Shown one piece after another: positions 26,271-50,069 of a stretch of 64,000 nucleotides of DNA (positions are counted from its first letter, which is position 1; each line of letters begins with the position of its first letter). A program made the translations under genes and the position numbers. The stretch comes from Arthrobacter sp. ERGS1:01. Lineage in GTDB: Bacteria > Actinomycetota > Actinomycetes > Actinomycetales > Micrococcaceae. The notes below the pieces were generated by a model. That model saw only the letters and a program-made list of their open reading frames with translations. It ran no database searches and had not been told where the DNA came from. The DNA is taken from positions 62,001 through 126,000 of the forward strand of contig NZ_CP012478.1 of NCBI RefSeq assembly GCF_001281315.1. Reading direction: 5' to 3'.

Positions 26271-26314
26271 GGAATCCGGCCTTGGGGACCAGCGGTACAG
26301 CGGTTGGCGCTAAG
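26271..26314 (+). repeat. Left terminal inverted repeat of the Tn3-family transposon
   Basis: Reads GGAATCCGGCCTTGGGGACC at the outer side and GGTTGGCGCTAAG at the inner side. It differs from the right repeat at positions 4 (A/T) and 9 (G/A). Similarity stops on both sides, which marks the element boundary. Confidence 0.85.
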
Positions 26315-26403
26315 CGTGTGACGTGGTCCCGGGCTACGGTTCATCTGGTGCCAGAGTCGTCTGTACTCCGCAGGGTAACCAGTAATCGCCGGCTTTCGAC
26401 GGA

Positions 26404-26979
26404 TCAGGCGTTTGGGTTGAGGTGGCGGTAGAGGGTCGCGCGACTCCACCCGACCAAGCGCGCAGCGTCCTCGGCGGTGCGTCCCCTCGCCCGGGCGTCC
26501 TTCGCAATCGCTAGCTTGTCCGCGATCACCGTCGGGTCCGAGAGCGGCCGGCCGAAACGGGTACCGCTTTGCCGGGCCGCGGCGATCCCGGCGTTGACGC
26601 GCTCCACGATCAGCTCGCGCTCATACTCGGCCAAGGAAGCCAGCATGTTCAGCATCATCCTCCCGGTCGAGGTCGCCGGGTCGATGCCGTCCGAAATGGA
26701 CCGGACCTGCACGCCGCGTTCGCGCAGCAGATTCACGGTGTTCAGCACATCAACCAGGGACCGGCCGAGTCGGTCGACCCGCCAGACCACCACGGTATCT
26801 CCGGCCTCGGCATATTCCAGGAGCTTCTTCATCCCGGGCCGCTCGATCGCCCTCCTGCTGCCGGAGGTTACATCGGCGAACACGTCCCGCTTTTGCACCC
26901 CGCCCTTGACCAGCGCATCAAGCTGCAACTGCGCATCCTGGCTCGAGGTGCTCACCCGTGTGTATCCCAAAAGTCTCAC
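26404..26979 (-). CDS. tnpR: Serine resolvase TnpR of the Tn3-family element
   Basis: A 191-residue small serine recombinase. The catalytic Ser lies in 'YTRVSTSSQD' (about residue 11). The arginine-containing blocks 'VVWRVDRLGRSLVDV' and 'ASLAEYERELIVERVNAGI' follow, then a C-terminal HTH 'TAEDAARLVGWSRATLYRHL' that binds res. It resolves the cointegrate formed by TnpA. I chose GTG 26979; a longer frame upstream of it continues into the res-like leader. The gene is close to the left inverted repeat, with its res sites expected upstream (26980-27170). Confidence 0.9.
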   Translation of the reverse strand: MRLLGYTRVSTSSQDAQLQLDALVKGGVQKRDVFADVTSGSRRAIERPGMKKLLEYAEAGDTVVVWRVDRLGRSLVDVLNTVNLLRERGVQVRSISDGIDPATSTGRMMLNMLASLAEYERELIVERVNAGIAAARQSGTRFGRPLSDPTVIADKLAIAKDARARGRTAEDAARLVGWSRATLYRHLNPNA

Positions 26980-27170
26980 CCCACCATTTTGACTCAAAAA
27001 ACCCTCGTGGCCAACCGGGCGAGACGTTTTACGGTAAGACGACTTTTTGGAACAAAACGCCTCCCGAAACTTCACCACCGCCGATCGGCAAAAAAGGTGC
27101 CGCTCGCCTGTCTCAGAAACCTTTAGGTTTCTAAGGCATCGCAGACTCGGGACCATTACGCGGAGAACTG
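26980..27170. promoter_or_regulatory. Candidate res site region
   Basis: The leader of tnpR contains AT-rich tracts, a perfect dyad AGAAACCTTTAGGTTTCT (27115-27132) and GACGTTTTACGGTAAGACGAC-type imperfect dyads near 27022-27042. Resolvase binding sites of Tn3 elements lie in exactly this position. The three subsites could not be assigned by eye. Confidence 0.5.
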
Positions 27171-27248
27171 GTGCTAACGCGTTCCGGGGTCTTGATCGCA
27201 CTCGGTACTCGCTGTGGAGTGCGCGTCGGGCAGGGGGATGATGGGTAC

Positions 27249-28187
27249 ATGATGGGTCGTGTGGTGGTGACTGGTGGTACGGGCCAGGTGGGGCGTCCGC
27301 TGGTACGGGCCTTGGCTGCAGCCGGGTGTGAGGTTGTCGTGTTGACCCGTCGCCCTGAACAGGCACGCGGGCTGGTCCCCGAGGCCGCTGATTGGGTCGC
27401 GTTCGACCCCGAGCTGCCCGAGACGTGGGAGCACACGATCGATGGTGCCGATGGCGTGGTCGTGCTGGGCGGGGCACCGTTCTTCCGTCGGTGGTCCAGT
27501 TGGGACGAGTTCGAGCGCGTCGCCACCGGTGGCCGGGTAGCCGCGAACCGTGCCATCGTCGACGCGATCGCCCGCGCGGAACATAAGCCCAGGGTCCTGG
27601 TGACCGGATCCTCGGTGGGCTACTACGGGTTTGAGGTCTCTGAGGCGATCGTTACCGAAGACACACCGGCAGGAACGGACCGATGGGCGCAGGGGACGGG
27701 CCGGTACGAGACCGAAGCGAAGCGTGCGGCCCAGTTTGGCATTCGGGTGGTGTGTCTGCGCACGGGCATCGTCTTCAGCCCCGACGACGGTATGGCAGCG
27801 CAAATGGCCGACCAGTTTCGTCGCGGGTTCGGGGCGGTCATCCTGCCCGGAACACAGTGGCTGCCGTGGATCCACATTGACGATGAGGTCGCACTGATCA
27901 TGCTCGCGCTCAATGATGACCGAGTAACCGGAGGGTTAAACGCGTCCTCTCCGAACCCGGCACGCTATCGCGAGTACGCGGCGGCGCTGGGTCACGTGTT
28001 CGGCCGACGCGTCCGACTACGACTGCCCGGGCTCGTCATGCGCCTGGCCTTGAAAGACATCGCCGAAGCTGTCCTGTACAACCGGCGCATGGTCCCGGCC
28101 AAGGCGCTGGGACTTGGATTCGAGTTCACCCACCCGGATCTGGAGCCGGCATTGCACGATCTACTGACCGCCCGCGGCGGCCGCTGA
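27249..28187 (+). CDS. NAD(P)-binding SDR39U1/TIGR01777-type epimerase
   Basis: A 312-residue extended short-chain dehydrogenase. The N-terminus 'MGRVVVTGGTGQVGRPLVRAL' is the Rossmann loop (GxxGxxG). 'LVTGSSVGYYG' carries the Ser and the Y-x-x-x-K region is 'GRYETEAKRA', with Tyr and the Lys four residues on altered to 'YETEAK'. The C-terminal 'PGTQWLPWIHIDDEVALIML' and 'RLRLPGLVMRLALKDIAEAVL' are typical of the TIGR01777 (YfcH/SDR39U1) group. The reaction is unknown. ATG 27249 has GGGGGATGATGGG upstream. It lies between tnpR and the sugar operon and may be part of the cargo. Confidence 0.75.
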   Translation: MMGRVVVTGGTGQVGRPLVRALAAAGCEVVVLTRRPEQARGLVPEAADWVAFDPELPETWEHTIDGADGVVVLGGAPFFRRWSSWDEFERVATGGRVAANRAIVDAIARAEHKPRVLVTGSSVGYYGFEVSEAIVTEDTPAGTDRWAQGTGRYETEAKRAAQFGIRVVCLRTGIVFSPDDGMAAQMADQFRRGFGAVILPGTQWLPWIHIDDEVALIMLALNDDRVTGGLNASSPNPARYREYAAALGHVFGRRVRLRLPGLVMRLALKDIAEAVLYNRRMVPAKALGLGFEFTHPDLEPALHDLLTARGGR

Positions 28188-28616
28188 CCGCTACCCCGCA
28201 GGGGTATCAAGGGATTGAGTATCTACGCCGATCACCACGGGCTCCCGATTCTATGGGAGATCAATCCTGGATCAGGTTCCACCGCTGACGCAATGCCCCC
28301 TCTAGCCCGGTCGTACTTCCGGCACGGATTCCTTAAGGTGACGATGCCCCAGCGCATTTTAGGCACGCAACGGGACAATCCGACGTGAATCCCAAGGGAA
28401 AGGCGTATGAAAGCCGGCGCTGGCGGGGTCGGGGGTTCAATCGGAACGGGGATGTCAATAGCGCCAAGCGCATGGACTACCTCAATCGATCGTTCGCAAG
28501 ACACTCCAAGACCTTCGCAGTGTTGTCCCAATTCCGAAGGCGAGTGTGTACGGATGCGCGAAAGTTGTTGAGCGTTGTTGTCTGGGATCCAGAGAAGATT
28601 GAGGCCATGGACACCG
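28188..28616. other. Non-coding region inside the transposon
   Basis: No convincing gene. The region separates the plus-strand epimerase from the convergent minus-strand aldolase operon and probably contains their ends. No strong hairpin was recognised. Confidence 0.35.
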
Positions 28617-29495
28617 TCAGCGAAGTGTAGTTTCCGCGTCTTTTCGTGATTGATTGATGAGTCGGATGAGGGTCTCCACCGTTTGTGACATGTCTGCTCT
28701 GGCGGGGCCGAGGTATCGGCGTGGGTCAACCAGGGCAGGGTCGGCGGTAAGAATGGATCGGATCGTGGCGCTCATGGCGCCATTGAGGGCGGTCCCTATG
28801 TTGACTTTGACGATTCCGGCAGCGATGGCTGCGCGCAGCTCCGTATCGGGGACTCCGGAGGAGCCATGGAGCACGAGTGGAACTGGCAGGCGCGCGTGGA
28901 GCCGATTGATAAGGTCCACGTCCAAAGATGCGGACTTGGTGTTCATGGCGTGTGAGCTGCCGACAGCAACTGCCAAGGCGTCAACACCCGTTGCCTCAGT
29001 AAAAAGGAGGGCCTCGGCAGGGTCAGTTCGCACGCCGTCAGCGTGGGCACTTTGCGGTTGGTTTGGTTTTCCGCCGATGTACCCGAGTTCTGCCTCTAGC
29101 CAAAGACCGTGACCGTGTGCCCAGCGCACAGCGGCGCGTGTACGCTCGACATTCTCGCTGTAGGGGAGTGAACCAGAATCGAACATTGCAGAGCAGATTC
29201 CGGCATCCACGCTGGCCTTGAGCAGGTCAATGTCATCGACGTGGTCCAGATGCAGCGCGACGGGGACGGAGGAGAGTTCCCCGATCGCGTTTGCTGCAGC
29301 AGCGAGCGGACGAAGGTGTCCGCCGTGAAATCTGACGGTGTTCTGGCTGATTTGTAGGATTACCGGTGCCTGTGCGGCCTCCGCTGCAGTGACGATTGCT
29401 TCGGCATGCTCGAGGGTGATGATGTTGAAGGCTGCGATGCCGGCCTGGCGTCTAATAGCTGCCGTGATCAGGTCACCGGTATGGACCAGGGGCAT
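28617..29495 (-). CDS. Class II ketose-bisphosphate aldolase (GatY/KbaY/Fba-like)
   Basis: A 292-residue zinc aldolase. The start 'MPLVHTGDLITAAIRRQAGIAAFNI' is typical. Metal and substrate residues are in 'ALHLDHVDDI' (His-Asp about 80), 'EAELGYIGG' (Glu about 135), 'AVAVGSSHAMN' (His about 179) and 'VLHGSSGVPD' (His about 208). It splits a 1,6-bisphosphate of a ketose (fructose, tagatose or a modified sugar) into two trioses. The gene directly follows the PfkB kinase (TGA-ATG), which would supply the bisphosphate. The exact sugar cannot be read from the sequence. Confidence 0.85.
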   Translation of the reverse strand: MPLVHTGDLITAAIRRQAGIAAFNIITLEHAEAIVTAAEAAQAPVILQISQNTVRFHGGHLRPLAAAANAIGELSSVPVALHLDHVDDIDLLKASVDAGICSAMFDSGSLPYSENVERTRAAVRWAHGHGLWLEAELGYIGGKPNQPQSAHADGVRTDPAEALLFTEATGVDALAVAVGSSHAMNTKSASLDVDLINRLHARLPVPLVLHGSSGVPDTELRAAIAAGIVKVNIGTALNGAMSATIRSILTADPALVDPRRYLGPARADMSQTVETLIRLINQSRKDAETTLR

Positions 29496-30455
29496 TCAGA
29501 TCTCCTCAATGACGATGTCGGCCATAGCTTTGTGCCGCGTGGCCTCGTCGATCTCTCCGGCTGTCTTGGCTACCACGGCCGCGGTGGCCGTGGCGGTGGC
29601 TTCCCTCAGTAGGGTTGGCCAATCCAGGTCGCGATTCAGCCCGCTGGCGATAGAGGCGGTGAGCGCATCCCCGGCACCAGTGGGATTTCCTTGATAGCGG
29701 CGTTGGGGTTTGGCGTGCCAGGCGCCGTCTTCGCTCACCAGGACGGTGCCGGTGGATCCGGCCGAGATCGCGACGGTCTTGGCTCCGAGCTGCCGCAGTT
29801 CGACGGCAGCCTGACGGATCTCCGGGATTCCGCGGAGCGGGCGGCCAAAGAGGGCTGCCGCCTCGTGAACATTTGGTTTGGCTAGATCCGGGTTGGCTGC
29901 CAGGGACTTCCGGAGCGGGATCCCCTCGGTGTCGATGATGCAGCGCGCGCCGACGGTGTGTGCCGCACTGATGAGCTGCTGGTAGGCGATCGGGGGAACG
30001 CCCGGCGGAACGCTGCCGGAGAGGACGATCCACCGGGAGGCGGCGGCTTCATGTCGAAAAGCTTCCATGAAGGCAGCCCATTCGGAGGCGCTGATCGTGG
30101 GCCCGGTCTCGTTGAAGACCGTGGCGTCAGCGGCGTCGACGACGGCCACTGTCCGCCGCGTGGACTCGGCAATGGGGACCAGTCGTGACGGCAGACCCCC
30201 GGCCTTGAGGTCCTGGGTGCAGCTTTTGCCGTCGGGGCCGCCGGCGAAGCCCAGCAGGCGAACGGGCTGGTCTAGCTGCTGGAGGACGCGGGCGACGTTG
30301 ACGCCTTTGCCGCCGGCCCGGACCAGTGGGTGGCCGACACGGTGGCTGTTGCCGTGGAGCAGACGGGCCACGGAGTACGTCATATCGAGCGCCGGGTTGA
30401 GACAGACAGCCAGGATTGGACGTGGCGGAGTGGTTTTAGTCGTCTCTTGTTTCAC
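29496..30455 (-). CDS. PfkB-type 1-phosphofructokinase/tagatose-6-phosphate kinase-like
   Basis: A 319-residue PfkB kinase. Signatures are 'LNPALDMTYSV' at the start, 'RAGGKGVNVARVLQQL' (substrate binding, about residue 40) and 'GNPTGAGDALTASIASGL' with the catalytic Asp (about 265). This subgroup phosphorylates fructose-1-P or tagatose-6-P, giving the substrate of the class II aldolase encoded next. GTG 30455 is chosen because it overlaps the preceding stop as GTGA. A longer reading starting at 30623 would overlap the tautomerase-like gene. Sugar specificity is unknown. Confidence 0.83.
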   Translation of the reverse strand: MKQETTKTTPPRPILAVCLNPALDMTYSVARLLHGNSHRVGHPLVRAGGKGVNVARVLQQLDQPVRLLGFAGGPDGKSCTQDLKAGGLPSRLVPIAESTRRTVAVVDAADATVFNETGPTISASEWAAFMEAFRHEAAASRWIVLSGSVPPGVPPIAYQQLISAAHTVGARCIIDTEGIPLRKSLAANPDLAKPNVHEAAALFGRPLRGIPEIRQAAVELRQLGAKTVAISAGSTGTVLVSEDGAWHAKPQRRYQGNPTGAGDALTASIASGLNRDLDWPTLLREATATATAAVVAKTAGEIDEATRHKAMADIVIEEI

Positions 30456-30766
30456 TCCGTGGTCACCACCCATTGCACCCAGGTCTGCTCCGGTGGGCAC
30501 TGGTAGGCGGAGGCCAGTGCCCGCGCCGCGGCGTCGGCAGCGGCCGTCATGGCACCGGCGTCCCGAAGGCGTCCGTGCATGATTGCGGTGGGCCAAGCGG
30601 TGGTGGGTGTGGTTCCCGTGCATCCTGTCGCGGCCGGGATGAGCATGCTGTGGACGGCCTCCGGGGGTAGGCCCAGCGCCTGGCTGGTCGCCAGGTTTAG
30701 TGCGGCCAGCGTCTGGGAGCTGTCGATTGATGCGGGGTCCGGGGCGAAAACGGTGATGACCGGCAT
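30452..30766 (-). CDS. Small tautomerase-like protein
   Basis: A 104-residue protein that starts MPVITVFAPDP, with the N-terminal Pro that serves as catalytic base in 4-oxalocrotonate-type tautomerases. It is followed by a beta-alpha pattern with 'LNLATSQALGLPPEAVHSMLIP' and 'ARALASAYQCPPEQTWVQWV'. The length is greater than the 60-residue bacterial tautomerases and near those of fused or MIF-like ones. It sits between the SIS isomerase and the kinase, so an aldo/keto tautomerisation of a sugar derivative is possible. Proof of function is missing. Confidence 0.5.
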   Translation of the reverse strand: MPVITVFAPDPASIDSSQTLAALNLATSQALGLPPEAVHSMLIPAATGCTGTTPTTAWPTAIMHGRLRDAGAMTAAADAAARALASAYQCPPEQTWVQWVVTTE

Positions 30767-30767
30767 G

Positions 30768-31658
30768 TCAGCCGATTTGGACGGAGCGGGAGAGGAAGGG
30801 CGGTACGTCCGGGTTGCGGCCGGCGGCCTTGGCCATGGCCACGGCCATCCGGTGGATGGCTACTAGTTCCGCCTGCGGGTCCCACTCTGGATCTACAACG
30901 GTGGCGCCGGTTTGGCGGATGGCGTCGGCGATCGCGGCGTCCAGGGGGACCAGGGGCCAGACGATGGTGCCTGGGCCGGCGGCGGAGATGGGGCCGTGCT
31001 GGTATTCCATGACGGCGTACGCCTCGGCCCAGCGTCCGGAGGATTCAAGGCATTTCAGGGCCGCCTCGTGGGCCAGCCCCAGGGAGAAGCCGGTCCCCAG
31101 GAACACCACGTGCTCGGGCGCAGGGGTGGGCAGGGTTCGGGTCAGGGCTTGTTCGGCTTCGGTAACCAGATGCCCGAGGTCCGGCACCAGGGAAGCGCGC
31201 AATAGGGTGAAGGCCGTGGAGGCGAACCGGGTCTGCACGATGGAGACTTCATCGGCATAATCAAGCATGACCACCTCGGTGCAGGCGTCGATCAGGGGGC
31301 TTTCGGGTGTTCCGACCAGACCGATCACCTGGTGTGTGGCCTTGAGGTTCCGGGCGGCGTCAATGACGTCAGTGGTGGTGCCGGAGCGGGAGAGTACGAT
31401 GACGGTCTCGTCGTCCTCGATGTAAGGGATTTCAGAGGGGACGACCGCACGGGTACGGCCCAGACCCAGCTGGTTGCGTAGCCGGGCATAGGCTTCCCCG
31501 ACATAGTAGGAGGTGCCGCAGCCGATGAAGAGCACCGGTGTGCCGGCCTCGGGTAGGGCTGTGCCGGCGGCCGCCTGGTTGATGGCCTGCTGCCAGGTCT
31601 GCGGCTGGCTGAAGATCTCCCGCAAAGTTTCGGTGGCGAAGGATTGTGTCTCGGTCAT
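30768..31658 (-). CDS. SIS-domain sugar isomerase/deaminase (AgaS/GlmS-like)
   Basis: A 296-residue protein with two SIS domains. The first has 'VLFIGCGTSYYVGEAYARLR' and 'VIVLSRSGTTTDVIDAARN' (about residues 42-105); the second has 'HVVFLGTGFSLGLAHEAALKCLE' (about 180-205). The Glu pair 'AYAVMEYQHGPISA' closes the active site. AgaS-like proteins isomerise or deaminate aminosugar phosphates; the domain also occurs in isomerases of sulfosugars. ATG 31658 follows AAGGAGACACA. It lies in one minus-strand cluster with two PfkB kinases and an aldolase, fitting an isomerise-phosphorylate-split pathway. Confidence 0.8.
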   Translation of the reverse strand: MTETQSFATETLREIFSQPQTWQQAINQAAAGTALPEAGTPVLFIGCGTSYYVGEAYARLRNQLGLGRTRAVVPSEIPYIEDDETVIVLSRSGTTTDVIDAARNLKATHQVIGLVGTPESPLIDACTEVVMLDYADEVSIVQTRFASTAFTLLRASLVPDLGHLVTEAEQALTRTLPTPAPEHVVFLGTGFSLGLAHEAALKCLESSGRWAEAYAVMEYQHGPISAAGPGTIVWPLVPLDAAIADAIRQTGATVVDPEWDPQAELVAIHRMAVAMAKAAGRNPDVPPFLSRSVQIG

Positions 31659-31700
31659 TGTGTCTCCTTGTAGGTGGGTCATTGCTGGGTCATGGCAGGG

Positions 31701-32690
31701 TCACCACAGGACCCGGACGTGGGGGAAGGAACCGGCGATGCGCTCCTGCAGTTCGGCGGGGGTGGCCAGGCTGCCGGTACCGCCGCGGCCTTGAATGGAC
31801 ACGGTTCCGGCCGCCACGGCGGAGGCTAGACATTCGGCCAGTGGCGCCCCGCGGGAAACGCCATGGAGGAATCCGGCGTTGAAATTGTCGCCGGCCCCCG
31901 TCGTATCGAAGGGGGTCGCGGGTTCGGTATCGAGTTGCAGGCCCGTGTCTTTGCTGCAGACCAGTCCGCCGTGGCCGCCACGCTTGAGCACCACCGTTGG
32001 TCCCAGGGCTGAGAGTGCGCGGGCGGCGCCGACATACCAGTGGGGTGTGTCCTGGTGGTGGGCGATGCCCAGCCGCTGCGCGATCCCGCCCAGCTCGGCT
32101 TCGTTGGGGAATATGTAACTGGTGTTCTCTAACGCGTCCGCGATTCCTCCCCAGTCCTGGCGGGGGTCCCAGCCGGTGTCCAGGGACGTTGTGACACCAC
32201 GGGCGCGCAGCTCGGCGAAAAGGGTGGCGAGCTCGGGCAACAGCGCCCGCTGGAGAAAAATGGAACTGACATGGACATGGCGGGCGTCTGTGAGTAGTTC
32301 GGCGGGGATGTCGGCGACCCTCAGCTCGGCCATGGTCCCGGGAAAGGTGAGCAGGGCCCGGTCTCCGCCTGGGACGTTGATGACGACGGTGAGCCCGGTG
32401 GCCCGATTCTTCCGGCGGATGACGGCTCCGGCATCCACGCCGGTGCGTTCGAGCAGCCCGAGAGTGAAGGATCCGAGTTCGTCATCGCCCAGGACGGCAC
32501 ACATGGCCACGGGCAGGCCGAGGGCTGCTGCGGCGGCCGCGGTGATGGCGCCGGAACTGCCCAGGGTGACTGCGGCGTCGCGGAGTTCGGTTTCTACTTG
32601 GCCGAAGGCGACCGGGCCGCCGTCGCTGTCCAGCAGCACGTCGGGGTTGAGTTCGCCGAGTACGAGAAGGGTCCATGGGATAGAGGTCAC
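31701..32690 (-). CDS. PfkB/ribokinase-family sugar kinase
   Basis: A 329-residue ribokinase-type kinase: 'LLVLGELNPDVLL' at the start, 'GSSGAITAAAAAALGL' (about residue 43), and 'PFDTTGAGDNFNAGFLHG' with the catalytic Asp (about 268). It is probably the first kinase of the pathway, acting on the imported free sugar or sugar acid. The start GTG 32690 lacks a strong ribosome site. It is divergent from the ABC-transporter operon, with a 164-base regulatory region between. Confidence 0.82.
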   Translation of the reverse strand: MTSIPWTLLVLGELNPDVLLDSDGGPVAFGQVETELRDAAVTLGSSGAITAAAAAALGLPVAMCAVLGDDELGSFTLGLLERTGVDAGAVIRRKNRATGLTVVINVPGGDRALLTFPGTMAELRVADIPAELLTDARHVHVSSIFLQRALLPELATLFAELRARGVTTSLDTGWDPRQDWGGIADALENTSYIFPNEAELGGIAQRLGIAHHQDTPHWYVGAARALSALGPTVVLKRGGHGGLVCSKDTGLQLDTEPATPFDTTGAGDNFNAGFLHGVSRGAPLAECLASAVAAGTVSIQGRGGTGSLATPAELQERIAGSFPHVRVLW

Positions 32691-32854
32691 AAGGACGAGC
32701 GTAATGCCCTAAACAGCCATGAGTCAATCAAAAGTGAGTAGATATGATCAATTTCATGGAATCTATTGATCTAACTTGCTTGAGCGTTGTACGGTTATGC
32801 TCACTTAGCTCGTAGCGGCCGACCAGCGGCACGCTTGACTCAAAGGAGATGTCA
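32691..32854. promoter_or_regulatory. Divergent promoter with two dyads: candidate DeoR operators
   Basis: Dyad 1: GATCAAT (32746-32752) with ATTGATC (32765-32771). Dyad 2: TGAGC (32781-32785) with GCTCA (32799-32803), read TGAGCGTTGTACGGTTATGC in part. ATGCTCA also stands at 40075-40081 in the other divergent intergenic region. The DeoR-type gene at 37177 is the likely regulator. Confidence 0.5.
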
Positions 32855-34216
32855 ATGGATGTGACACGGCGCGGGTTTCTGTCCGGAACCGTTGGTGCTG
32901 CGGCCCTACTGGGCCTGGGGGCGTGTTCCTCGGTGCACTCAGACTCGGCAGGCGGTGCCGGAACCGTGGGACCCGCCGGCACCCCGGGCACCAAGTCGAG
33001 CATCGGACCGGTCACCGGGAAGCTGACGTTCGCCTTTTGGGGTGGAAGTGCGGGAGAGACGGCGGGTTTCAACTATGCCAAGCAAAAGTTTGAGGCCGCC
33101 AACCCCGGAACGACCATCCAGCTGAAGGTTCTGCCCTACGACGGATTCTTCTCCGCTATCGACCGCGGGATCGGATCCGGCACCGCCCCGGATGTGTTTC
33201 GGGTCGACTACACCACGATCGGCCGGTACAGCGCCAAGGATGTCCTGTTGGATATGACGCCGTACTTCAGTACCGAGGAGTCGGCAAAGTTCCTGCCCGC
33301 CCTGTGGGAGGCCGTGAAATATAACGGCGTTCCGTTCGGTGTGCCGCATCAGACCGACACGACGTGCCTTGTTTACAACAAGGCAGCCTTCGCGACGGCC
33401 GGCATCACCTCGGTGCCGGACAAGCTCTCCGATGCCTGGTCCTGGGACGAGTTTTCCACGGTCGCCGCCAAACTGCGCCGTACACTGCCGGAGAGCAAAT
33501 ACCCCTTCGCCTATGACTGGACCCAGGCCGGGGCCTACCGGTGGCTGTCCTGGCTCTACCAGTCAGGGGGCACCTTGCTGACGCCTGATCTGAAGAAGAG
33601 CGCCCTGCCCAGCGGTCCCGCCACCACGGCCATGGACTACACCAAGAGCTTCTTCGACAAAAAATGGGTCCCGGCGAACAACACCATCAAGACCAGTGTC
33701 TACTCCGATAACTTCTTCCTCTCCCAAACCGTACCGATGACCTTCATGGGCGACTTCCTGATCCCCGAGCTGGCCGACCCCAAACAGGGATACACGGGAG
33801 GGGACTGGGGCGCTACCTTTATGCCGCAGGACAAGAGCGCGGCCTCGGATCTGGGAGGCAACGCGATCGTCGCCCGCAAAGATACCAAGAACCCCGATTT
33901 GGCGGCCGCGTTCCTGAAATTCCTGGTCAGCGAGGACGCGATGAAATATTTCTGCGAACAAGCCATCGAACTGCCCACCTTGCAGTCGTTGGCCGGGGAG
34001 AAACTCAACTATGTGACCCGCCCGGACGTCGTCAAGATTTTTGCCGAACAGGCCCCCACCATCACCAACACGGTGGTCAAGGAGTCCACTGTCTCGTCCT
34101 TCGCCACCATTAACACCGTGCTACAGGACCAGCTCGAACTGGCCTTCCACGGCCAATCCAGCGACACCACCGTCAATAACATTGCCAGCGGAGTCAACTC
34201 CGCCCTCGGATCCTAG
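32855..34216 (+). CDS. Sugar ABC transporter substrate-binding lipoprotein
   Basis: A 453-residue extracellular solute-binding protein (family 1). The N-terminus 'TRRGFLSG' looks like a Tat signal, and a lipobox 'GLGACSS' puts the lipid-bound Cys near residue 24. 'LTFAFWGGSAGETAGFNYAKQKFEAANPG' and 'VFRVDYTTIGRYSAK' fit carbohydrate-binding proteins. It delivers a sugar to the two permeases downstream. ATG 32855 is preferred over 32849 because AAAGGAG precedes it at the right distance. No ATPase gene is in the cluster, so a shared MsmK/MalK-type ATPase elsewhere is expected. Confidence 0.86.
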   Translation: MDVTRRGFLSGTVGAAALLGLGACSSVHSDSAGGAGTVGPAGTPGTKSSIGPVTGKLTFAFWGGSAGETAGFNYAKQKFEAANPGTTIQLKVLPYDGFFSAIDRGIGSGTAPDVFRVDYTTIGRYSAKDVLLDMTPYFSTEESAKFLPALWEAVKYNGVPFGVPHQTDTTCLVYNKAAFATAGITSVPDKLSDAWSWDEFSTVAAKLRRTLPESKYPFAYDWTQAGAYRWLSWLYQSGGTLLTPDLKKSALPSGPATTAMDYTKSFFDKKWVPANNTIKTSVYSDNFFLSQTVPMTFMGDFLIPELADPKQGYTGGDWGATFMPQDKSAASDLGGNAIVARKDTKNPDLAAAFLKFLVSEDAMKYFCEQAIELPTLQSLAGEKLNYVTRPDVVKIFAEQAPTITNTVVKESTVSSFATINTVLQDQLELAFHGQSSDTTVNNIASGVNSALGS

Positions 34217-34227
34217 AGGAGAACGAG

Positions 34228-35214: not shown

Positions 35215-35228
35215 CGAAGGAGTCTCCC

Positions 35229-36119
35229 ATGAGCATTACTACCGCCTCCGGCGTGCTAGCTGAAACCCCGCCGCCAAGCGGTGCAGTGCGTTCCCGTCCC
35301 CGCAGTCGATGGCTGTGGCTGCGACTGGGATGTGCCATTGTGATCACCGCCGTCATCTTCTTTCCGCTCTACTGGATGATGATGACAGCCTTCTCGACCC
35401 GGGCGGACCTGTATGCCCCCGGTCTGCACTTTTGGCCGCAGCACTTCACCTGGTCCAATTTCACTGATCCGATCGCCCAGTTCCCCGTCTGGACCTGGTT
35501 CGGGAACTCCTTCACGATCGCGGCTCTCACCACGGCGATCACGGTGGTGTGCAATCTGCTGGCCGGGTACGCTTTCGCCAAGCTGCGCTTCCGGGGAAAG
35601 AACGCCCTGTTCCTGCTCCTGCTCTCCACCATGATGATTCCGGTTCAGGCCATCATGGTCCCGCAATTCAAGTTATCGGTCCAGCTGGGGCTCTACGGCA
35701 ACATTTGGTCCGTCATCCTGCCCGAGAGCGCCGCTATCTTCGGCGTGTTTTTGGCCCGGCAATTCTTCCTTGCCATTCCCGATGAACTCATGGAGGCCGC
35801 CCGGGTTGACGGGGCGGGACAGCTGCGCACCTTCGTCAGTATCGTCCTGCCGCTGTGTAAACCGCTGTTGGCCGTCCTGACACTGCTCACCTTCATGAGC
35901 GAATGGAACTCTTTCGGCTGGCCTCTGATTGCGTTGTTCAGCGACGAGCAGTTGTTCACCTTACCGATCGGCATGGTGACGGACCTTCAGGGCCAGTACA
36001 CCTCCAACTACGGGGCCATCATGGCCATGAGCCTGCTGATGATCGCCCCGGTGGTGGTGCTGTTCGTCGCCTTCCAAAAGTATTTTGTCCAGGGCCTCGC
36101 CCGATCCGGTATCAAGTAG
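35229..36119 (+). CDS. Sugar ABC transporter permease (MalG-like)
   Basis: A 296-residue permease with about six membrane helices and the EAA loop 'EAARVDGAGQLRTFVSIVLP' (about residues 190-209). It forms the channel with the preceding MalF-like protein. ATG 35229 follows GAAGGAGT. A longer frame starting before the stop of the MalF-like gene is rejected. The gene is separated from the dehydrogenase by 9 bases, so one operon runs 32855-38954. Confidence 0.88.
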   Translation: MSITTASGVLAETPPPSGAVRSRPRSRWLWLRLGCAIVITAVIFFPLYWMMMTAFSTRADLYAPGLHFWPQHFTWSNFTDPIAQFPVWTWFGNSFTIAALTTAITVVCNLLAGYAFAKLRFRGKNALFLLLLSTMMIPVQAIMVPQFKLSVQLGLYGNIWSVILPESAAIFGVFLARQFFLAIPDELMEAARVDGAGQLRTFVSIVLPLCKPLLAVLTLLTFMSEWNSFGWPLIALFSDEQLFTLPIGMVTDLQGQYTSNYGAIMAMSLLMIAPVVVLFVAFQKYFVQGLARSGIK

Positions 36120-41013: not shown

Positions 41014-42381
41014 ATGACAGCCCGACGTAGCCTCGTCCTCATCGGCGCGGGAAGCGCGGTCTTCACGCGCGGCCTGCTGGCCGATCTCATCTCCGCCCGT
41101 GACCTGGGCGACTGGGAAATCCGCCTGGTCGACATCAACGAACGCTCACTGGCCAAGGCCGTGGGCCTGGCCCGGCAAATGATCACTGCCCGCAACGTCG
41201 GGGACCACATCACCGTCACCGGATCCACCGACCGTCGAAGCGTGCTCCCGGGTGCCGACTTCGTCGTGACCTGCGTCGGAGTCGGCGGACGGCCCGGCTG
41301 GCAGAAGGACCATGAAATCTGCATGCAGCACGGCATCTTCCAGCCGGTCGGGGACTCCGTCATGCCCGGTGGCATCTCGCGGCTGCTCCGGACCACCCCC
41401 GTCCTGGTAGACATCGCCCGGGATGTGGTGGAATTGGCCCCGGACGCTTTCTTCTTCAACTACAGCAACCCGATGACCGCCAACATCATGGCAATGGCCA
41501 AGTATGCCGGGGCCGAGAACGTCGTCGGGCTCTGCCACGGCATGCACCACGTGCAGCATCACCTGGCCACCTTCATCAACAAGCCCTTCGAGCAGACCTC
41601 GACCCTGTACGCTGGCATCAACCATCTGACGTTCATCTATGACTTCCGCTGGAACGGCCAGGACGCCTGGCCGCTGGTGAAGGCCAAGGCCGACCAGGAA
41701 CTGGCCCTGCCACCGGTATCCGAAGATCTCGGCAACATCTTCGCCGACGGAACCAAGGCCTGGCACAACCCCTTCTCCTGGGAGATCTTCCGCCGCTACG
41801 GCGCCTTCCCGGCCGCTGAGGACCGCCACGTCACGGAATTCTTCCCCGAACGCTGGGCCGGCGGACAGTACTACGGCAAGACGCTGGGGGTGGACGCCTA
41901 CTCGGTGCCCGAAATCCTGGACTGGGGCGAGAAACGCTACCAGTCCATGATCGCCCAAGCCGACGGTACCGAGCCCCTGGATGAGACAATCTTCGACCGC
42001 TCCAGCGGTGAACAGGAGCAACTGATTTCCATCATCCGCTCAGTGCTCACGGACTCACGGGAAATGTTCTCCTGCAACGTGCTCAATAACGGTTCCGTCC
42101 CCGGGCTGCCCGACGATGCGGCCCTGGAAATTCCCGGTGTCGCCACCGCCCGGGGCATCCGCCCGATTTCGGTACCCGACCTCTCGAGCCCGTTGACGGC
42201 AATACTGGCGCGCCGCCTTTCCTCGGTCTATCTCGCGGTGGAAGCCGCGATGACCGGTGACCGTGACCTTGTTGTCGAGGCGATGATCGCCGACGGCGCG
42301 GTCACCGACCCGGGCGCCGCGGCCAAGCTGACGGACGCGCTCATTGAAGCTCAGCTCCAGTACCTGCCGAGGTTCCAGTGA
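41014..42381 (+). CDS. GH4-like NAD-dependent glycosidase
   Basis: A 455-residue glycoside hydrolase of the GH4 type. N-terminal NAD-binding 'LVLIGAGSAVFTRGLLADLI' (about residues 6-25), 'FNYSNPMTANIMAM' (about 148-160) and 'VVGLCHGMHHV' with the metal-binding Cys and His (about 172-182) are present. Such enzymes cleave glycosides by a redox mechanism with NAD and a divalent metal and accept alpha and beta linkages. ATG 41014 follows GGAAAGG. The substrate is unknown: alpha-galactoside or uronide is possible, and related NAD-dependent enzymes act on sulfoquinovosides. Its stop overlaps the dehydratase start (GTGA). Confidence 0.85.
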   Translation: MTARRSLVLIGAGSAVFTRGLLADLISARDLGDWEIRLVDINERSLAKAVGLARQMITARNVGDHITVTGSTDRRSVLPGADFVVTCVGVGGRPGWQKDHEICMQHGIFQPVGDSVMPGGISRLLRTTPVLVDIARDVVELAPDAFFFNYSNPMTANIMAMAKYAGAENVVGLCHGMHHVQHHLATFINKPFEQTSTLYAGINHLTFIYDFRWNGQDAWPLVKAKADQELALPPVSEDLGNIFADGTKAWHNPFSWEIFRRYGAFPAAEDRHVTEFFPERWAGGQYYGKTLGVDAYSVPEILDWGEKRYQSMIAQADGTEPLDETIFDRSSGEQEQLISIIRSVLTDSREMFSCNVLNNGSVPGLPDDAALEIPGVATARGIRPISVPDLSSPLTAILARRLSSVYLAVEAAMTGDRDLVVEAMIADGAVTDPGAAAKLTDALIEAQLQYLPRFQ

Positions 42382-44099
42382 CCGGGCCGCTGCGCAGCGC
42401 AGCCTGGTTCGCCGCCCCCGGTAAAACCGGAATCATGCACCGATCATGGATGCGGTCCGAGGGCCTGCCCGACGATTCGTTCGAAGGCCGTCCGGTGATC
42501 GGCATCGCCAACAGCTGGTCCGAGCTGACACCGTGCAACCTGCACTTCCGTGAGCTCGCCGAACATGTCAAACGCGGCATCTGGCAAGCCGGTGGCGTCC
42601 CCTTTGAGTTCCCCACCACCTCGGCCGGGGAATCCCTGATCCGGCCGAGCGCCATGATCCTGCGCAACCTGATCGCCATGGACCTCGAAGAGACCCTGCG
42701 CGCCAACCCGCTGGACGCCGTCGTCCTCTTGGCCGGATGTGACAAAACAACCCCGGCCTACCTGATGGGTGCAGCGAGCGTTGACCTGCCCACGCTGCTG
42801 ATCACCGGCGGCCCCATGCTCAACGGGAAGTACCGCGGCACCGACATCGGTTCCGGAACCTCGATCTGGCGTTTCACCGAACAAGTCCGGGCCGGCCAGA
42901 TGTCCGCTGCGGACCTTTCGGAAGCTGAATCCTGCATGGCGCGCAGCAACGGTCACTGCATGACCATGGGCACCGCATCAACCATGGCCATCCTCTCCGA
43001 AGTGCTGGGCATGCAACTGCCCGGCAGCGCCGACCTGCCCGCCAATGACTCACGCCGCAAGAAGCTCGCCCACCTGGCGGGCCGGCGCATCGTGGACATG
43101 GTTGCCGAGGATCTTCGCCCCTCCACGATCATGACCCGAACCGCGTTCGAGAACGCCATCCGCGCCAACGTCGCCATCGGCGGCTCCACCAACGCCGTCG
43201 TGCACTTGCTGGCCCTGGCCGGCCGGCTGGGCGTTGACCTGAAGCTGGACGACTTCGAAACCCTCGCCGCCGATGTTCCCACCCTGGTGGACCTCATGCC
43301 ATCGGGGCGGTTCCTGATGGAAGACTTCTGCTATGCGGGCGGTCTCGGCGCACTCATCGAGCGGATGGGCACACTCCTGGACCGAGACGCCGTCACCGTT
43401 ACGGGGGCAACGATCGGCGAAAACTACGCCGGTGCCCCAACGTACAACAACGAGGTTATCCGCGAACTCGACACCCCGGTCAAACCGGTCGGTTCGGGCA
43501 TTGCCGTCCTACGCGGAAGCCTTGCCCCGGACGGGGCGGTGATCAAGCAGTCGGCCGCCTCGACCGAGCTCCTGGTGCACCGAGGCCGGGCCCGCGTGTG
43601 GGACCGCGTCGAGGACTACCTCGTCGAAGCCGAGAATCCCGACACCGATATTGACGCCGCCGACATCCTGGTCATCCGCTACGCGGGGCCGCGCGGATAT
43701 CCCGGGATGCCCGAGATCGCCAACGTCGCCCTGCCCAAAAAGCTCCTACAGGAAGGCATTCGCGACATGGTCAGGATCTCGGACGCGCGCATGTCGGGAA
43801 CCTCCTACGGGACCGTGATCCTGCATGTGGCGCCGGAGGCCGCCAACGGCGGCCCGCTGGCACTGGTCCGCGACGGCGACATCATCTCCTTGGACGTGCC
43901 GGCCCGACAGCTGGATCTGGAGGTCGGCGAGGAAGAACTTGCCGCCCGCCGGGCCGACTGGACGCCACCCGCCGTTGAAGGCACCGACCGGGGCTATCTC
44001 AAACTGTTCGTGGAACATGTCAACGGGGCGGACACCGGTGCTGACTTCGACTTCCTCATCGGTGGCAGCGGCGCCAAAGTGCCCCGGCAGGCGTTCTAA
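42378..44099 (+). CDS. IlvD/Edd-family sugar-acid dehydratase
   Basis: A 573-residue iron-sulfur dehydratase. The three cluster cysteines occur in 'ELTPCNLHF' (about 53), 'LAGCDKTTPA' (about 121) and 'SNGHCMTMG' (about 193). C-terminal 'SDARMSGTSYGTVILHVAPEA' is the family signature. Members dehydrate dihydroxy acids or aldonates (arabonate, xylonate, galactonate, 6-phosphogluconate) to 2-keto-3-deoxy acids. Start GTG 42378 overlaps the glycosidase stop. Together with FAH and the 2-hydroxyacid dehydrogenase it points to a non-phosphorylated sugar-acid branch. Confidence 0.88.
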   Translation: MTGPLRSAAWFAAPGKTGIMHRSWMRSEGLPDDSFEGRPVIGIANSWSELTPCNLHFRELAEHVKRGIWQAGGVPFEFPTTSAGESLIRPSAMILRNLIAMDLEETLRANPLDAVVLLAGCDKTTPAYLMGAASVDLPTLLITGGPMLNGKYRGTDIGSGTSIWRFTEQVRAGQMSAADLSEAESCMARSNGHCMTMGTASTMAILSEVLGMQLPGSADLPANDSRRKKLAHLAGRRIVDMVAEDLRPSTIMTRTAFENAIRANVAIGGSTNAVVHLLALAGRLGVDLKLDDFETLAADVPTLVDLMPSGRFLMEDFCYAGGLGALIERMGTLLDRDAVTVTGATIGENYAGAPTYNNEVIRELDTPVKPVGSGIAVLRGSLAPDGAVIKQSAASTELLVHRGRARVWDRVEDYLVEAENPDTDIDAADILVIRYAGPRGYPGMPEIANVALPKKLLQEGIRDMVRISDARMSGTSYGTVILHVAPEAANGGPLALVRDGDIISLDVPARQLDLEVGEEELAARRADWTPPAVEGTDRGYLKLFVEHVNGADTGADFDFLIGGSGAKVPRQAF

Positions 44100-44103
44100 A
44101 GCC

Positions 44104-44634
44104 ATGGACGGTCCAGTTCTCGTCGTCGGGGCGACGCGCATGCTGCGCCCCGCCGTCGACGAACTGGTCCGGGGCGGATCCACGGTCATTGCCGTGGCCC
44201 GATCCGCCGCTGACCTGCAAATCCTGGCCGCCGAGCATCCAGGGACCGTGACGGGTATTGCCGTCGATTATCGCGACGCCGACCGATTCCTGCGACTGCT
44301 CCAGTCCGTACACACCCCGGCATCTGCGGCGATCGTGTACATCCCCTCCGCGGAACCGGCGGCACTGTCCACCCTCAGATCCCTGGTCCGCGGACCTGTG
44401 GTGCAGGTGCTGACCAGCCACGTTGCCGATCCTGCCGGCGGAGAGCCGTTCACCTTCGAAAACCTTCCCCAGCCCCCCGGACAGCCCTGGTACCGGCTCG
44501 TTCTGGGATGGAGTAAGACAGGCGCCTGGCACTCACCCGACGAAATTTCGGCAGCAGCAGTCGCCGTGCTTAGACAGAAAAGAGACGGACAACTTGGTGA
44601 GCTGCGCCCATGGACCGACCGGCCCGAAGCGTGA
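44104..44634 (+). CDS. Short NAD(P)-binding Rossmann protein
   Basis: A 176-residue protein. 'VLVVGATRMLRPAVDELVRGG' is a dinucleotide-binding start, but the total length is shorter than a normal SDR (about 250). The Tyr-x-x-x-Lys pair is not clearly present. It may be a truncated or divergent dehydrogenase; its start, 4 bases after the dehydratase stop, links it to the same operon. The reaction is unknown. Confidence 0.55.
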   Translation: MDGPVLVVGATRMLRPAVDELVRGGSTVIAVARSAADLQILAAEHPGTVTGIAVDYRDADRFLRLLQSVHTPASAAIVYIPSAEPAALSTLRSLVRGPVVQVLTSHVADPAGGEPFTFENLPQPPGQPWYRLVLGWSKTGAWHSPDEISAAAVAVLRQKRDGQLGELRPWTDRPEA

Positions 44635-44721
44635 CCACAGATACCAGCAGCCACCACCACCATGCTCTGTGTATAGCCGGTCGCGTACTTGATGCGGGCC
44701 GATGAAAGGGAAGAGGGCCTC

Positions 44722-46227
44722 GTGCTGAAGATTCCCGTGATACGAGCGGGTTTGCCGCAGTGGCTGGCCCTGGCAGTGCTGACGCTACCGGTGCTGCTGA
44801 TCGCCGTCGACTCGACAGTGCTCGGCTTTGCAGTCCCCGCCCTCACCGAGGCATTGCGACCATCGGGCGTCCAATTGCTGTGGATCGTCGATATCTACTC
44901 GTTCATGCTCGCCGGCTTGCTCGTGACAATGGGCACGCTGGGGGACAGGATCGGACGGCGCAGGCTATTGCTGATCGGTTCGGCGGGCTTCGGTGCCGCC
45001 TCCGCGCTCACGGCCTACTCCAGCTCACCCGAGATGCTGATTGCTGCACGGGCCGTGCTGGGGTGCGCCGGTGCCACCCTGATGCCCTCGACCCTCTCCA
45101 TTCTGCGGCACCTCTTTCATAATGCCCGGCAGCGCCGGCTGGCGATCGCCATTTGGTCCGCCACGGCCTCCGGCGGGGCGGCACTGGGGCCCATCCTCGG
45201 GGGCTTCCTGCTTGAGCATTTCTGGTGGGGTTCGGTGTTCCTGATCAATGCACCCGTCATGGTGCTGATCCTGATTGCCGCACCACTACTCGTCCCGGAG
45301 TCCAAGGACCCACATCCGGGCAAGTACGATCTGCCCAGCGCGGCGTTGTCCCTGGCAGCCATCCTTCCGGTGATCTACGGGATTAAGATGCTGGCCGCAG
45401 ACGGACCGGCCCCGATGCCGGCATTCTCACTGGTGGTTGGCCTGCTGCTCGGTGCGGCATTTATACGTCGACAAAAACGGTTGGCCGATCCGATGATCGA
45501 CGTGCGCCTGTTCACCAACGCAACCTTTTCAGCCGGCGTGGTCATCAACTTGTTCTCAGTTTTTGCCCTGGTGGGTGTGTTCTTCGTGGTCACGCAATAC
45601 CTGCAGCTCGTGCTGGGATTAGGTCCACTGGAGGCGGCGCTTTGGCTGATGCCGGCCATGGTGGCGGAAGCACTCAGTGCGCTGGCCGGGGTCTGGCTGG
45701 TTCGGCTGATGCCGCTCAACCGCGCCGTTTGTCTGGGACTCGTGCTGGCAGGAGCCGGCATCGGGCTGTCCACGCTAACAGCGTCTCACCCGTTCCCGGG
45801 CATAATATTTGTCGGATTCCTCCTGCTCGGACTGGGTTCCGGGCTGGCCTATGCACTCAGCAACGATGCGATTATTGCTGCCGTCAACCCAGAAAGGGCC
45901 GGAGCCGCCGCGGCCGTCTCCGAGACGGCCTACGAGCTCGGCGCAGCTTTGGGTGTCGCGATCCTGGGCACCGTGCTCAACACGGGTTACCGTTCCGGGT
46001 TTCTTCCAGGAGCAGGTGTCAGTACCGTGACGGCGAGTCAGGCCCGTGAAACCCTCGGCGCGGCCAGGGTCCTGGCCGAATCGCTTCCACTTGATCAGGC
46101 CACCCTGCTAATGGACGCCGGCCGGAGTGCGTTTCTCAACGGAATGTTCGCCGTTGGCCTAGTGGCAGTCACAATCCTGGGCGGGACGGCCATCTTCTCG
46201 CTCTTCTGGTTCAGAGAGAAGAACTGA
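44722..46227 (+). CDS. MFS exporter, DHA2 (EmrB/QacA) type
   Basis: A 501-residue transporter with about 14 membrane helices. 'AVDSTVLGFAVPALTEAL' (motif D1), 'LLVTMGTLGDRIGRRRLLLIG' (loop 2-3) and 'SATASGGAALGPILGGFLLE' (motif C of exporters, about residues 150-170) mark a proton-driven drug or metabolite exporter. GTG 44722 is chosen since AAGGGAAGAGGG lies directly upstream. The TetR-like remnant immediately downstream was probably its repressor, so the exporter may now be unregulated. Confidence 0.85.
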   Translation: MLKIPVIRAGLPQWLALAVLTLPVLLIAVDSTVLGFAVPALTEALRPSGVQLLWIVDIYSFMLAGLLVTMGTLGDRIGRRRLLLIGSAGFGAASALTAYSSSPEMLIAARAVLGCAGATLMPSTLSILRHLFHNARQRRLAIAIWSATASGGAALGPILGGFLLEHFWWGSVFLINAPVMVLILIAAPLLVPESKDPHPGKYDLPSAALSLAAILPVIYGIKMLAADGPAPMPAFSLVVGLLLGAAFIRRQKRLADPMIDVRLFTNATFSAGVVINLFSVFALVGVFFVVTQYLQLVLGLGPLEAALWLMPAMVAEALSALAGVWLVRLMPLNRAVCLGLVLAGAGIGLSTLTASHPFPGIIFVGFLLLGLGSGLAYALSNDAIIAAVNPERAGAAAAVSETAYELGAALGVAILGTVLNTGYRSGFLPGAGVSTVTASQARETLGAARVLAESLPLDQATLLMDAGRSAFLNGMFAVGLVAVTILGGTAIFSLFWFREKN

Positions 46228-46343
46228 ACCCTGCGCATACAGGCTGCTATGGTGTACGGCAAAAACTTAGCGTGGTATTTGTTCCGTTTTCTAGCGACCC
46301 CCTTTTGTCGTCTTTCCCCGAAGGAGGACAGCTGGAAAGGTAA

Positions 46344-46553
46344 CGGCAGCATGCCCTGAAGGGCTTGGAGGAGATCATTCGTCTGGCCAAGGCCTCCGGC
46401 ACGCTGCGCCCAGGCTTCGACGTCGAGGATATCTCACTGCAGTTGCTGGCCCACGACGGAGTGCTCACCGGCACCGAGCCAAACACTTAAACTGCCTCGG
46501 AACGAATCATCGGCTGGCTGCTCGACGGCTGCCGGAACACCCCGACGCCGTAG
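46344..46553 (+). pseudogene. TetR-family repressor remnant (C-terminal part)
   Basis: Reading from 46344, the frame gives 'RQHALKGLEEIIRLAKASG' and 'LRPGFDVEDISLQLLAH', then a TAA stop (46488-46490), then 'TASERIIGWLLDGCRN' to TAG 46551. This matches the C-terminal ligand domain of TetR proteins that end in '...LxxxLLDGxR'. The N-terminal HTH part is absent and a stop interrupts the rest. Its closeness to the MFS gene fits the common TetR-exporter pair. Confidence 0.65.
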
Positions 46554-46779
46554 TGACGCACCCTGAGTTGTTTGATGAACGAAAGCTCACGGCGCAGGAT
46601 AGGGATCACCCGGGTGGACGTCCCTTCAAGCACCGGGTTCACAGATCTACGCTGAGCCTTCGAGGGCAGGGTCTTTGGACGAGACGTCTCATAACCCAGG
46701 CGAGGCAAAACGATGCAAAGTATGGGCGAGCGACACCGCAGGGAAGCTGATTACCACCCCGACCGGCCCTTGGCACCAT
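46554..46779. other. Non-coding stretch before tnpA end
   Basis: No convincing gene. A short palindrome GAGACGTCTC lies near 46681-46690. The region separates the TetR remnant from the convergent tnpA gene. Confidence 0.35.
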
Positions 46780-49700: not shown

Positions 49701-49917
49701 GCACGGCCGAGGGGTCCTCCAGGAACAGCCCGATATACCGGACCGTACACATCTGCAAGGCAAAGCCCAGACGATTGTGGTCACCGCGCCGTTTCACGAC
49801 CAGGTTCCGGTCCTCGTCGTCGAGGAAGAAGAAGCGCTCCAACTCGGGCCGCGTCGGTTCCTCGGCGAACCTTCCATAGGCCTCGGCCTGCTCATCAGTC
49901 AGAAATTCCACGGGCAT
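46780..49917 (-). CDS. tnpA: Tn3-family transposase TnpA
   Basis: A 1045-residue transposase, near the family's usual 950-1020. The N-terminus 'MPVEFLTDEQAEAYGRFAEE' is typical, with 'FFFLDDEDRNLVVKRRGDHNRLGFALQMCTV' conserved across the family. The C-terminal catalytic region has 'LASVDGLRFVVPVRT' and 'EMVATDNASYSDMVFGLFKML', the two Asp of the DDE triad. No frameshift is visible. It binds the terminal repeats and moves the element by a replicative route. ATG 49917 is preferred over a longer non-ATG start that would cross the inverted repeat. Confidence 0.95.
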   Translation of the reverse strand: MPVEFLTDEQAEAYGRFAEEPTRPELERFFFLDDEDRNLVVKRRGDHNRLGFALQMCTVRYIGLFLEDPSAVPWPVVEHLAAQLAIEDPSCLKEYTERPKTAYEHAWEIRDAYGYHQYEDPAHGRMFRAFLHGRAWTHAEGPVALFNHAAGWLRRHRVLLPGVNVLARQVSEVRTIAEKRLHATVAKAAVRADAALPGNLVATLKTPEGTRYSELERMRRPPTRSTGTAMKGALQRVEDIGAFGLGRLKLEQVPPNRLSVLARYGLGAKAPKLERTAEPKRTAILTAVMRQLEAKAIDDALDLFEILMATRLISTAKRATDKQRLSTLPQLEKASRIVARAAKVFIEKLESIEEAGGEVDVAALWRALEEIAPRLVMSGAAATVVTLVPQDGDSAQSALRGALALRYNTVRPFLSLLGETSALEAATDGVRILAGVKKLPALSRRKVGEKPLLPREIDDKLVPPHWHKAVYANAELPEGAVDRDAYVVCVLEQLFRALKRRDIFASPSHRWSDPRARLLMGTGWEAVREDILAGLSLEEDAEQHLRELVEVLDATWRQMAERLDEAGDDAKISIEVQPNGRAKLNVEKIHALGEPKSLAWLRGRVERMLPKIDLPDLLFEVNSWTGFLDAFVHLGDGRTRMKDLSTSLVALLVSEACNIGMTPVINPSHEALTRSRLVHVDQYYLRTTTIAAANAALIEAQAKVPIVQFWGKGLLASVDGLRFVVPVRTINAAPSPKYFAKQKGITWLNAINDQVAGLGQMVVPGTPRDSLFILDALLNLDGGVKPEMVATDNASYSDMVFGLFKMLGYRFSPRFKDLEDQRFWKAQMPGAEPAESYGALEALARNNKVNVNKVLTAWPDMLRVAGSLVTNQVRAYDLLRMFGHEGRPTPLGQSFAEYGRIAKTLHLLAVVDPADDTYRRQMHKQLTVQESRHKLAREICHGKKGTIHQAYRDGMEDQLGSLGLVLNAVVLWTTRYIDAAVAQLRTEGHEIRDEDVARLSPLKHKNLNLLGRYNFTATQPAGGTLRPLRDPDTTGLDDDEEGAED

Positions 49918-50025
49918 GAGACTGACAATAGCCGCCCCACCAGTGATCGAGACTCTTCCGACGAAAATCTGCACGCAACTCCGTGCAACTTGGATCGCCT
50001 GAACTGAAAGATCAAGGTCAATTGG

Positions 50026-50069
50026 CTTAGCGCCAACCGCTGTACCGCTGGTCCCCAAGGTCGGAATCC
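50026..50069 (-). repeat. Right terminal inverted repeat of the Tn3-family transposon
   Basis: The reverse complement of the left repeat with two mismatches in 44 bases. The CTTAG end faces tnpA and the GGTCCCCAAGG side faces outward. It starts 108 bases upstream of the tnpA start. Confidence 0.85.

Follow-up and report, generated by a model that had tools for sequence, protein, structure and literature searches.

A Tn3-family transposon with mainly carbohydrate-catabolism cargo in a 152-kb contig of Arthrobacter sp. ERGS1:01

A stretch of about 23.8 kb in the genome of Arthrobacter sp. ERGS1:01 (three contigs, 4.94 Mb) carries sugar-catabolism genes between inverted repeats, which raises the question whether it is one transposon and, if so, how such a cargo came to lie between its arms. 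We analysed it in a stretch of 64,000 nucleotides (the window), which corresponds to bases 62001-126000 of a contig of 152,177 bp (C2). It is our reading, to which we give a probability of about 0.9, that 26277-50063 of the window (23,787 bp, C2:88277-112063) is one structurally intact Tn3-family transposon, the cargo of which is mainly a cluster for carbohydrate catabolism, of a type that other actinobacteria have without transposon parts, and is flanked by conserved Micrococcaceae Tn3 arms, its left edge falling at the putative site I of res, the whole being inserted in the 152-kb contig. With res as predicted, the order within the element is IRL - tnpR - res - cargo - tnpA - IRR (Table 1). 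The ends, the 5-bp duplication, the open tnpA and tnpR frames and a sister element with the same arms are observed directly. An earlier note on this DNA had already called it a Tn3-family transposon with carbohydrate-catabolism cargo, which is supported by the ends, the duplication, tnpA and tnpR, and the cargo families.

Table 1. Features of the element, in window coordinates
Feature	Position	Strand	Evidence
Target-site duplication, left copy	26272-26276	+	GAATC, 5 bp
IRL, left inverted repeat, 38 bp	26277-26314	+	37/38 alike to IRR; related ends in other genomes
tnpR, serine resolvase, 191 aa	26404-26979	-	PF00239, E 5e-43; open frame
Probable res region, upstream of tnpR	26960-27138	.	dyad; predicted site
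Putative res site I dyad, 30 bp	27109-27138, centre 27123/27124	.	like-placed dyad in 8/10 arms
TIGR01777-family NAD-dependent oxidoreductase	27171-28187	+	215.4 bits, cut-off 207.35; not found in 7 related clusters
Class II ketose-bisphosphate aldolase	28617-29495	-	PF01116; TIGR00167 over cut-off
PfkB-family hexose(-phosphate) kinase	29496-30623	-	TIGR03168 over cut-off
SIS-domain sugar isomerase/deaminase-like protein	30768-31682	-	PF01380; homologues often named FrlB-like
PfkB-family sugar kinase	31701-32690	-	PF00294; NCBIfam equivalogs all below cut-off
Sugar-type ABC binding protein	32849-34216	+	PF01547
ABC permease 1	34228-35214	+	PF00528
ABC permease 2	35178-36119	+	PF00528
D-2-hydroxyacid dehydrogenase family	36129-37172	+	PF02826
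DeoR-family regulator, nearest AgaR	37177-37935	+	PF00455, PF08220; NF040755 183.9 of 260 bits, below cut-off
Conserved cluster gene, polysaccharide-deacetylase-like by eye only	38274-38954	+	no Pfam match; relative in 7/7 clusters
Gene without Pfam match	39013-40023	-	relative in 4/7 clusters
FAH-family hydrolase	40004-40984	+	PF01557
GH4-family glycosidase-like enzyme	40999-42381	+	PF02056, PF11975 over cut-off; aligns with solved GH4 enzymes
IlvD/Edd-family dehydratase, aldonate-dehydratase-like	42378-44099	+	NF004784 over cut-off; L-arabinonate dehydratase model 802.7 of 882 bits
Small NAD-binding/short-chain-dehydrogenase-like gene	44104-44634	+	weak Pfam only; relative in 6/7 clusters
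DHA2-type MFS, nearest efflux families, not sugar permease	44689-46227	+	not found in 7 related clusters
tnpA, Tn3-family transposase, 1045 aa	46780-49917	-	NF033527 825.7 bits (cut-off 500); D719, D792, E930 align with Tn4430 triad
IRR, right inverted repeat, 38 bp	50026-50063	-	37/38 alike to IRL
Target-site duplication, right copy	50064-50068	+	GAATC, 5 bp

Ends, transposition genes and insertion site

The earlier note had placed at the ends inverted repeats of 44 bp, alike at 42 positions. The repeats are indeed present, but comparison of the two with each other and with related ends corrects their length to 38 bp. Our survey of 395 family genomes (own included) gave 31 end-like places in 21 of them, with 30 loci read. 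Exactly CGGCCTT stands before the core in 11 of the 30 related ends, the window's left end among the 11; most of the others have near variants such as CGGCATT, CGGCTTT and CGACCTT, and a few (e.g. L034, L043, L046) diverge further. Outside this heptamer or its variant the sequence differs among the 30 ends, and in the window the outer bases hold the direct GAATC repeat, on which grounds the 44-bp reading was rejected; its six outer bases contain the target duplication, which happens to resemble a part of the inverted repeat. Ends of 31 bp starting at GGGG were rejected as well, because the flanks would then lack a duplication. The two copies of GAATC form a perfect 5-bp direct repeat in one orientation immediately outside the 38-bp ends, which fits the 5-bp target duplication required, and which the earlier note had expected, of a Tn3 insertion.

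The Tn3 polarity claimed before holds for the inner end of the repeats (...GCGCTAAG), where TAAG points inward as in the Tn3 family, but not for the outer one, since the repeats start with CGGCCTT and CGACCTT and GGGG lies 7 bp inward from the end. GGGG at the outer end is common among Tn3 elements and not universal, and we treat its absence from the outermost position as a variant, not as a defining feature. No further occurrence of the 38-mer end with up to 9 mismatches was found within the window beyond IRL and IRR, and none of a 35-mer of the end with up to 3 mismatches in the 4.94-Mb genome besides the two element ends.

The frame of tnpA runs over 1045 codons without inner stops and encodes a large TnpA with the Tn3 DDE domain (PF01526, 418.8 bits), in which the three catalytic residues are present when it is aligned on what we take to be the triad positions of Tn4430. 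The frame of tnpR, for which the annotated relative from pA40H2 suggests a GTG start, runs over 191 codons, likewise without inner stops, and has a Resolvase domain. The intact transposase near the right end and the resolvase near the left end, both reported before, are thus found again. As judged from the Tn3 family, TnpA would copy 26277-50063 as one unit into new sites, and TnpR, acting at res, would resolve the cointegrates.

C2 is a contig with plasmid features, namely a ParA-type ATPase (22022-22801) whose relatives include some on Arthrobacter-group plasmids, a umuD-like stretch to the right of the element and a TraG-type coupling protein just beyond the window (C2:59344-59700). No TrwC-type relaxase was found on C2, the sole match of the genome being on C1, a contig of 754 kb. 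The GC content of the element is 63.9%, versus 58.2% and 56.2% in the flanks. A colinear paralogue of both flanks, with no transposon, lies on C1 (G000:C1:693742-701000). It matches the left flank at 23373-25387 (89%) and 25432-26263 (86%), and the right flank at 50077-50127 (88%) and 50125-53730 (97%, the match ending at the limit of the stretch compared). This paralogue supports the insertion of the transposon. Regarding the empty site for which the earlier note had proposed to look, C1 thus offers colinear flanks without the transposon, but with 757 bp between the two flank matches it is not the exact site. Matches of some kind to the flanks occur in all 23 genus genomes surveyed (own included), and among the matches listed from them the two flanks occur together on C1 of this genome only; no exact empty site was found in the 22 others. 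Among the PLSDB matches listed for the two flanks, none extends to the insertion point. No second copy of the element was found, nor was any spread from host to host seen.

Note also that several kb of the C2 backbone (23373-26263 and 50077-53730) are duplicated on C1, colinear and 86-97% alike. A gene with a CAP12/Pycsar-effector TIR domain (PF10137), possibly an anti-phage defence protein, lies beside the transposon at 52611-53405, and a frame of 793 aa with DUF7507/DUF11 repeats at 9531-11912 probably encodes a surface protein.

The cargo and its relatives

Between the site-I dyad and tnpA lie 17 likely genes (cargo about 27124-46773). None of the 16 cargo frames checked has an inner stop, and the seventeenth (44104-44634) also reads open. 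The two PfkB kinases, the SIS isomerase, the class II aldolase, the GH4-like enzyme, the IlvD/Edd dehydratase, the FAH hydrolase and the DeoR regulator that the earlier note had named were all found by profile search; to these are added the TIGR01777 oxidoreductase, the 2-hydroxyacid dehydrogenase, the DHA2-type MFS, the gene at 44104 and two genes without Pfam match, which it had left unnamed. In the GH4 family member at 40999-42381 the GLC and NH motifs align with 5c3m, at what are presumably the metal-site Cys and His positions of GH4. Since most NCBIfam equivalog matches of the cargo proteins are below their own cut-offs, we give them no exact activities. The ABC importer described before stands as to its binding protein and two permeases, but not as to an ATPase: none of the 120 PF00005 (ABC_tran) matches of the genome (at E up to 1e-20 and with 150 of 215 candidates scored) lies within C2:88277-112063, so that the four components are not found in one unit and the word complete, used earlier of the sugar-catabolism island, is too strong.

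With these families, a glycoside would be taken up by the binding protein and the permeases with an ATPase supplied by the host, and then be opened by the GH4 enzyme. From there, one route may lead from a kinase through the SIS isomerase/deaminase and the second kinase to the aldolase, and another from the aldonate dehydratase to the FAH hydrolase, the pathway being presumably under the DeoR repressor. The regulator being nearest to AgaR, though below its cut-off, and many of the SIS homologues being named FrlB-like give a weak hint that the substrate might be an amino sugar or of the Amadori type. We also considered the sulfoquinovose and galactosamine pathways and adopted neither.

As a block, the cargo occurs only in its own genome among the 295 family genomes searched and was seen in none of the other 294. 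Some match to it occurs in 292 of the 295, with identities up to 75% over short stretches and the best one in another genome covering 1.6 kb at 66%, among the matches listed. In PLSDB the near mode, which would miss diverged plasmid clusters, gave three short matches. An island native to the plasmid was rejected on the strength of the family genome search together with the target duplication and the GC contrast.

At the level of the class, the GH4 protein (E up to 1e-150) has close homologues in 8 of 394 class genomes, that is, its own and seven others, and beside all seven of these lie related clusters of broadly the same gene order. We compared 14-20 kb around each by tblastn (E up to 1e-8). 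The binding protein, both permeases, the hydroxyacid dehydrogenase, the DeoR regulator, the 38274 gene and the GH4 enzyme are found in all seven. The counts for the other genes, as for all of them, are lower bounds because some clusters run to the edge of the stretch compared: six for SIS and for the small 44104 gene (E up to 1e-5), five for FAH and for IlvD (one at only 36%), four for the aldolase, for the 39013 gene and for the first kinase (29496; three weak), and three for the second kinase (31701). In these stretches of 14-20 kb the 27171 oxidoreductase, the MFS, tnpR and tnpA were found in none of the seven, and neither was the 38-bp end with up to 9 mismatches. That clusters without Tn3 parts exist in other actinobacteria implies that a type of cluster which existed already was mobilised by the Tn3 arms. 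The earlier note had regarded one gene order recurring in many chromosomes that lack the repeats as speaking against a transposon. This is partly found in the seven clusters, yet the transposon itself is not undone, its ends and duplication being intact.

Per protein, the identity between cargo and clusters is 33-78%, which marks these as related clusters and not as the donor. The best relatives of the GH4 enzyme are at 86% on short contigs and at 84% in Jatrophihabitans endophyticus; those of the SIS protein are at 77% on a contig, 72% in Glaciihabitans and 71% in J. telluris. The nearest relatives are thus mixed, and we name no donor.

Possibly interchangeable arms and the putative res site

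In Paeniglutamicibacter terrestris (G074) we find a sister element of 14,129 bp with like 38-bp ends and the order IRL-tnpR-cargo-tnpA-IRR, flanked by a GGTAA/GGTAA target duplication; its DNA is 87% alike to that of the window over 0.77 kb of the left (tnpR) arm and 93% over 3.29 kb of the right (tnpA) arm. A further relative of 14,089 bp in P. gangotriensis (G022) has like ends and the flanks TTAAC/TATCT, that is, no duplication. Between the arms, neither has any DNA in common with the window cargo; by eye, theirs is multicopper-oxidase-, rhodanese- and permease-like, unlike that of the window.

The 30-bp dyad upstream of tnpR stands at the same place in eight of ten tnpR arms, G143 and pA2H2 being without it. 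We compared the eight arms ungapped from the dyad centre, over 149 bp on the left and 150 bp on the right beyond the half-site. To the left of the dyad pA8H1 (L078) and pA40H2 (L079) are 100% alike, and to the right 28%; for G022 (L060) and G074 (L057) the values are 100% and 29%, and for G022 and pA40H2 they are 72% and 100%. Owing to partial conservation of the half-sites, the first two pairs still align locally for about 15 bp beyond the dyad centre, which places the switch within the 30-bp site and not to the base. The other G074 arm and G190 are alike right through site I, as expected from their common cargo. The window arm is 62-68% alike to the seven others on the left and 22-30% on the right, meaning that its cargo likewise begins at this point; its junction is common to none of the seven.

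The pairings in pA8H1, pA40H2, G022 and G074 are what a crossover at the putative site I would leave, and these four related arms suggest that resolvase may shuffle left arms among related elements. That the window cargo entered by resolvase at site I can be proposed by analogy, since no relative has its junction. Generalised, the Micrococcaceae Tn3 elements would form a modular family. Resolvase, recombining them at res site I, would join interchangeable IRL-tnpR arms with cargo-tnpA-IRR bodies of different kinds, and the elements would in this way gather entire operons (here a cluster for carbohydrate catabolism that comes from outside the family) and move them between actinobacteria on plasmids. 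We put this forward tentatively, with a chance that falls just short of even.

A serious possibility, which we would rate somewhat below even odds, is that the cargo was joined next to res by ordinary insertion or illegitimate joining. This would agree with a junction seen in no relative, with the two arms that have no dyad at that place and with the unlike central dinucleotides of site I in G022 (TT) and G074 (CT), and other transposons are known to insert adjacent to res. Moreover, an exchange at res swaps the left arm alone and leaves the right cargo edge beside tnpA unexplained. By contrast, in three pairings among four arms identity gives way to unrelated sequence inside the 30-bp site, which speaks for resolvase.

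Two further alternatives concern the element itself. If the ends came from different Tn3 insertions that happen to lie on either side of a sugar island, the 23.8 kb would never have moved as a unit. It is true that arms recombine among elements and that, as the P. gangotriensis element with its matching ends and no duplication implies, mispaired ends do occur in the group; nevertheless, the perfect direct repeat sits exactly at the 38-bp ends, the genome holds only two such ends, and the sister with a duplication has the identical arm order, which makes separate insertions very improbable. It is unlikely, if less so, that with the arms as described the cargo is a patchwork no longer making a working pathway. 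A patchwork would fit the lack of an ABC ATPase within the element, the efflux-type MFS and the oxidoreductase that were not seen in the related clusters, and the fact that the GH4 and SIS proteins have their best relatives in different organisms, while the 16 frames without inner stops and the joint occurrence of importer, dehydrogenase, regulator and GH4 enzyme in all seven clusters argue against it.

Several known systems stand close to the single intact transposon that we favour. Resolvase shuffling, the exchange of transposon parts at res sites, was reportedly described by Kholodii in 2001 for Gram-negative mercury transposons, whereas the arms here are actinobacterial. Tn951 is a relative of Tn3. 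It is a plasmid-borne transposon with lacI, lacZ and lacY, which like our element moves sugar-use genes, but as an enterobacterial lactose operon and not as an actinobacterial ABC/GH4 cluster (PMC4549013). Tn6516 and Tn6517 from Antarctic Arthrobacter plasmids are Tn3-family transposons with 38-bp repeats, 5-bp duplications and passenger genes, and their repeat endings (CGCTAAG in Tn6516, GGCGCTAAG in Tn6517) resemble those of the window; unlike the latter, their repeats begin with GGGG, and their passengers are copper resistance or hypothetical genes instead of sugar catabolism (PMC6305408). Transposons with a sugar operon, Tn3 passengers in Arthrobacter and resolvase shuffling are thus already known, and what is added here is the unusual cargo and the informative relatives. 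Our literature search, which covered few subscription journals, found no paper on Tn3 with sugar catabolism and none on res-site recombination in Arthrobacter; absence from print is not claimed. The element provides a cleanly bounded Tn3 case (duplication, sister, colinear unoccupied region) that moves a nutrient-use cluster, not resistance genes, and its relatives make resolvase-driven arm exchange directly testable in actinobacteria.

Finally, we note two arrangements among the relatives. In pA2H2 (L077, 890-4578) a gene with a Mu-transposase domain, an ATPase gene and a second recombinase gene adjoin a relative of the window tnpR, as if another transposon had inserted beside res. Tn3-like ends with this kind of tnpR also occur at G190:C1:3752900-3783500 (L058, L059) and G074:C29:43900-50000 (L056), where the two loci have a common cargo of about 3.8 kb at 86%, and the tnpA of G190 is only 54% alike in protein.
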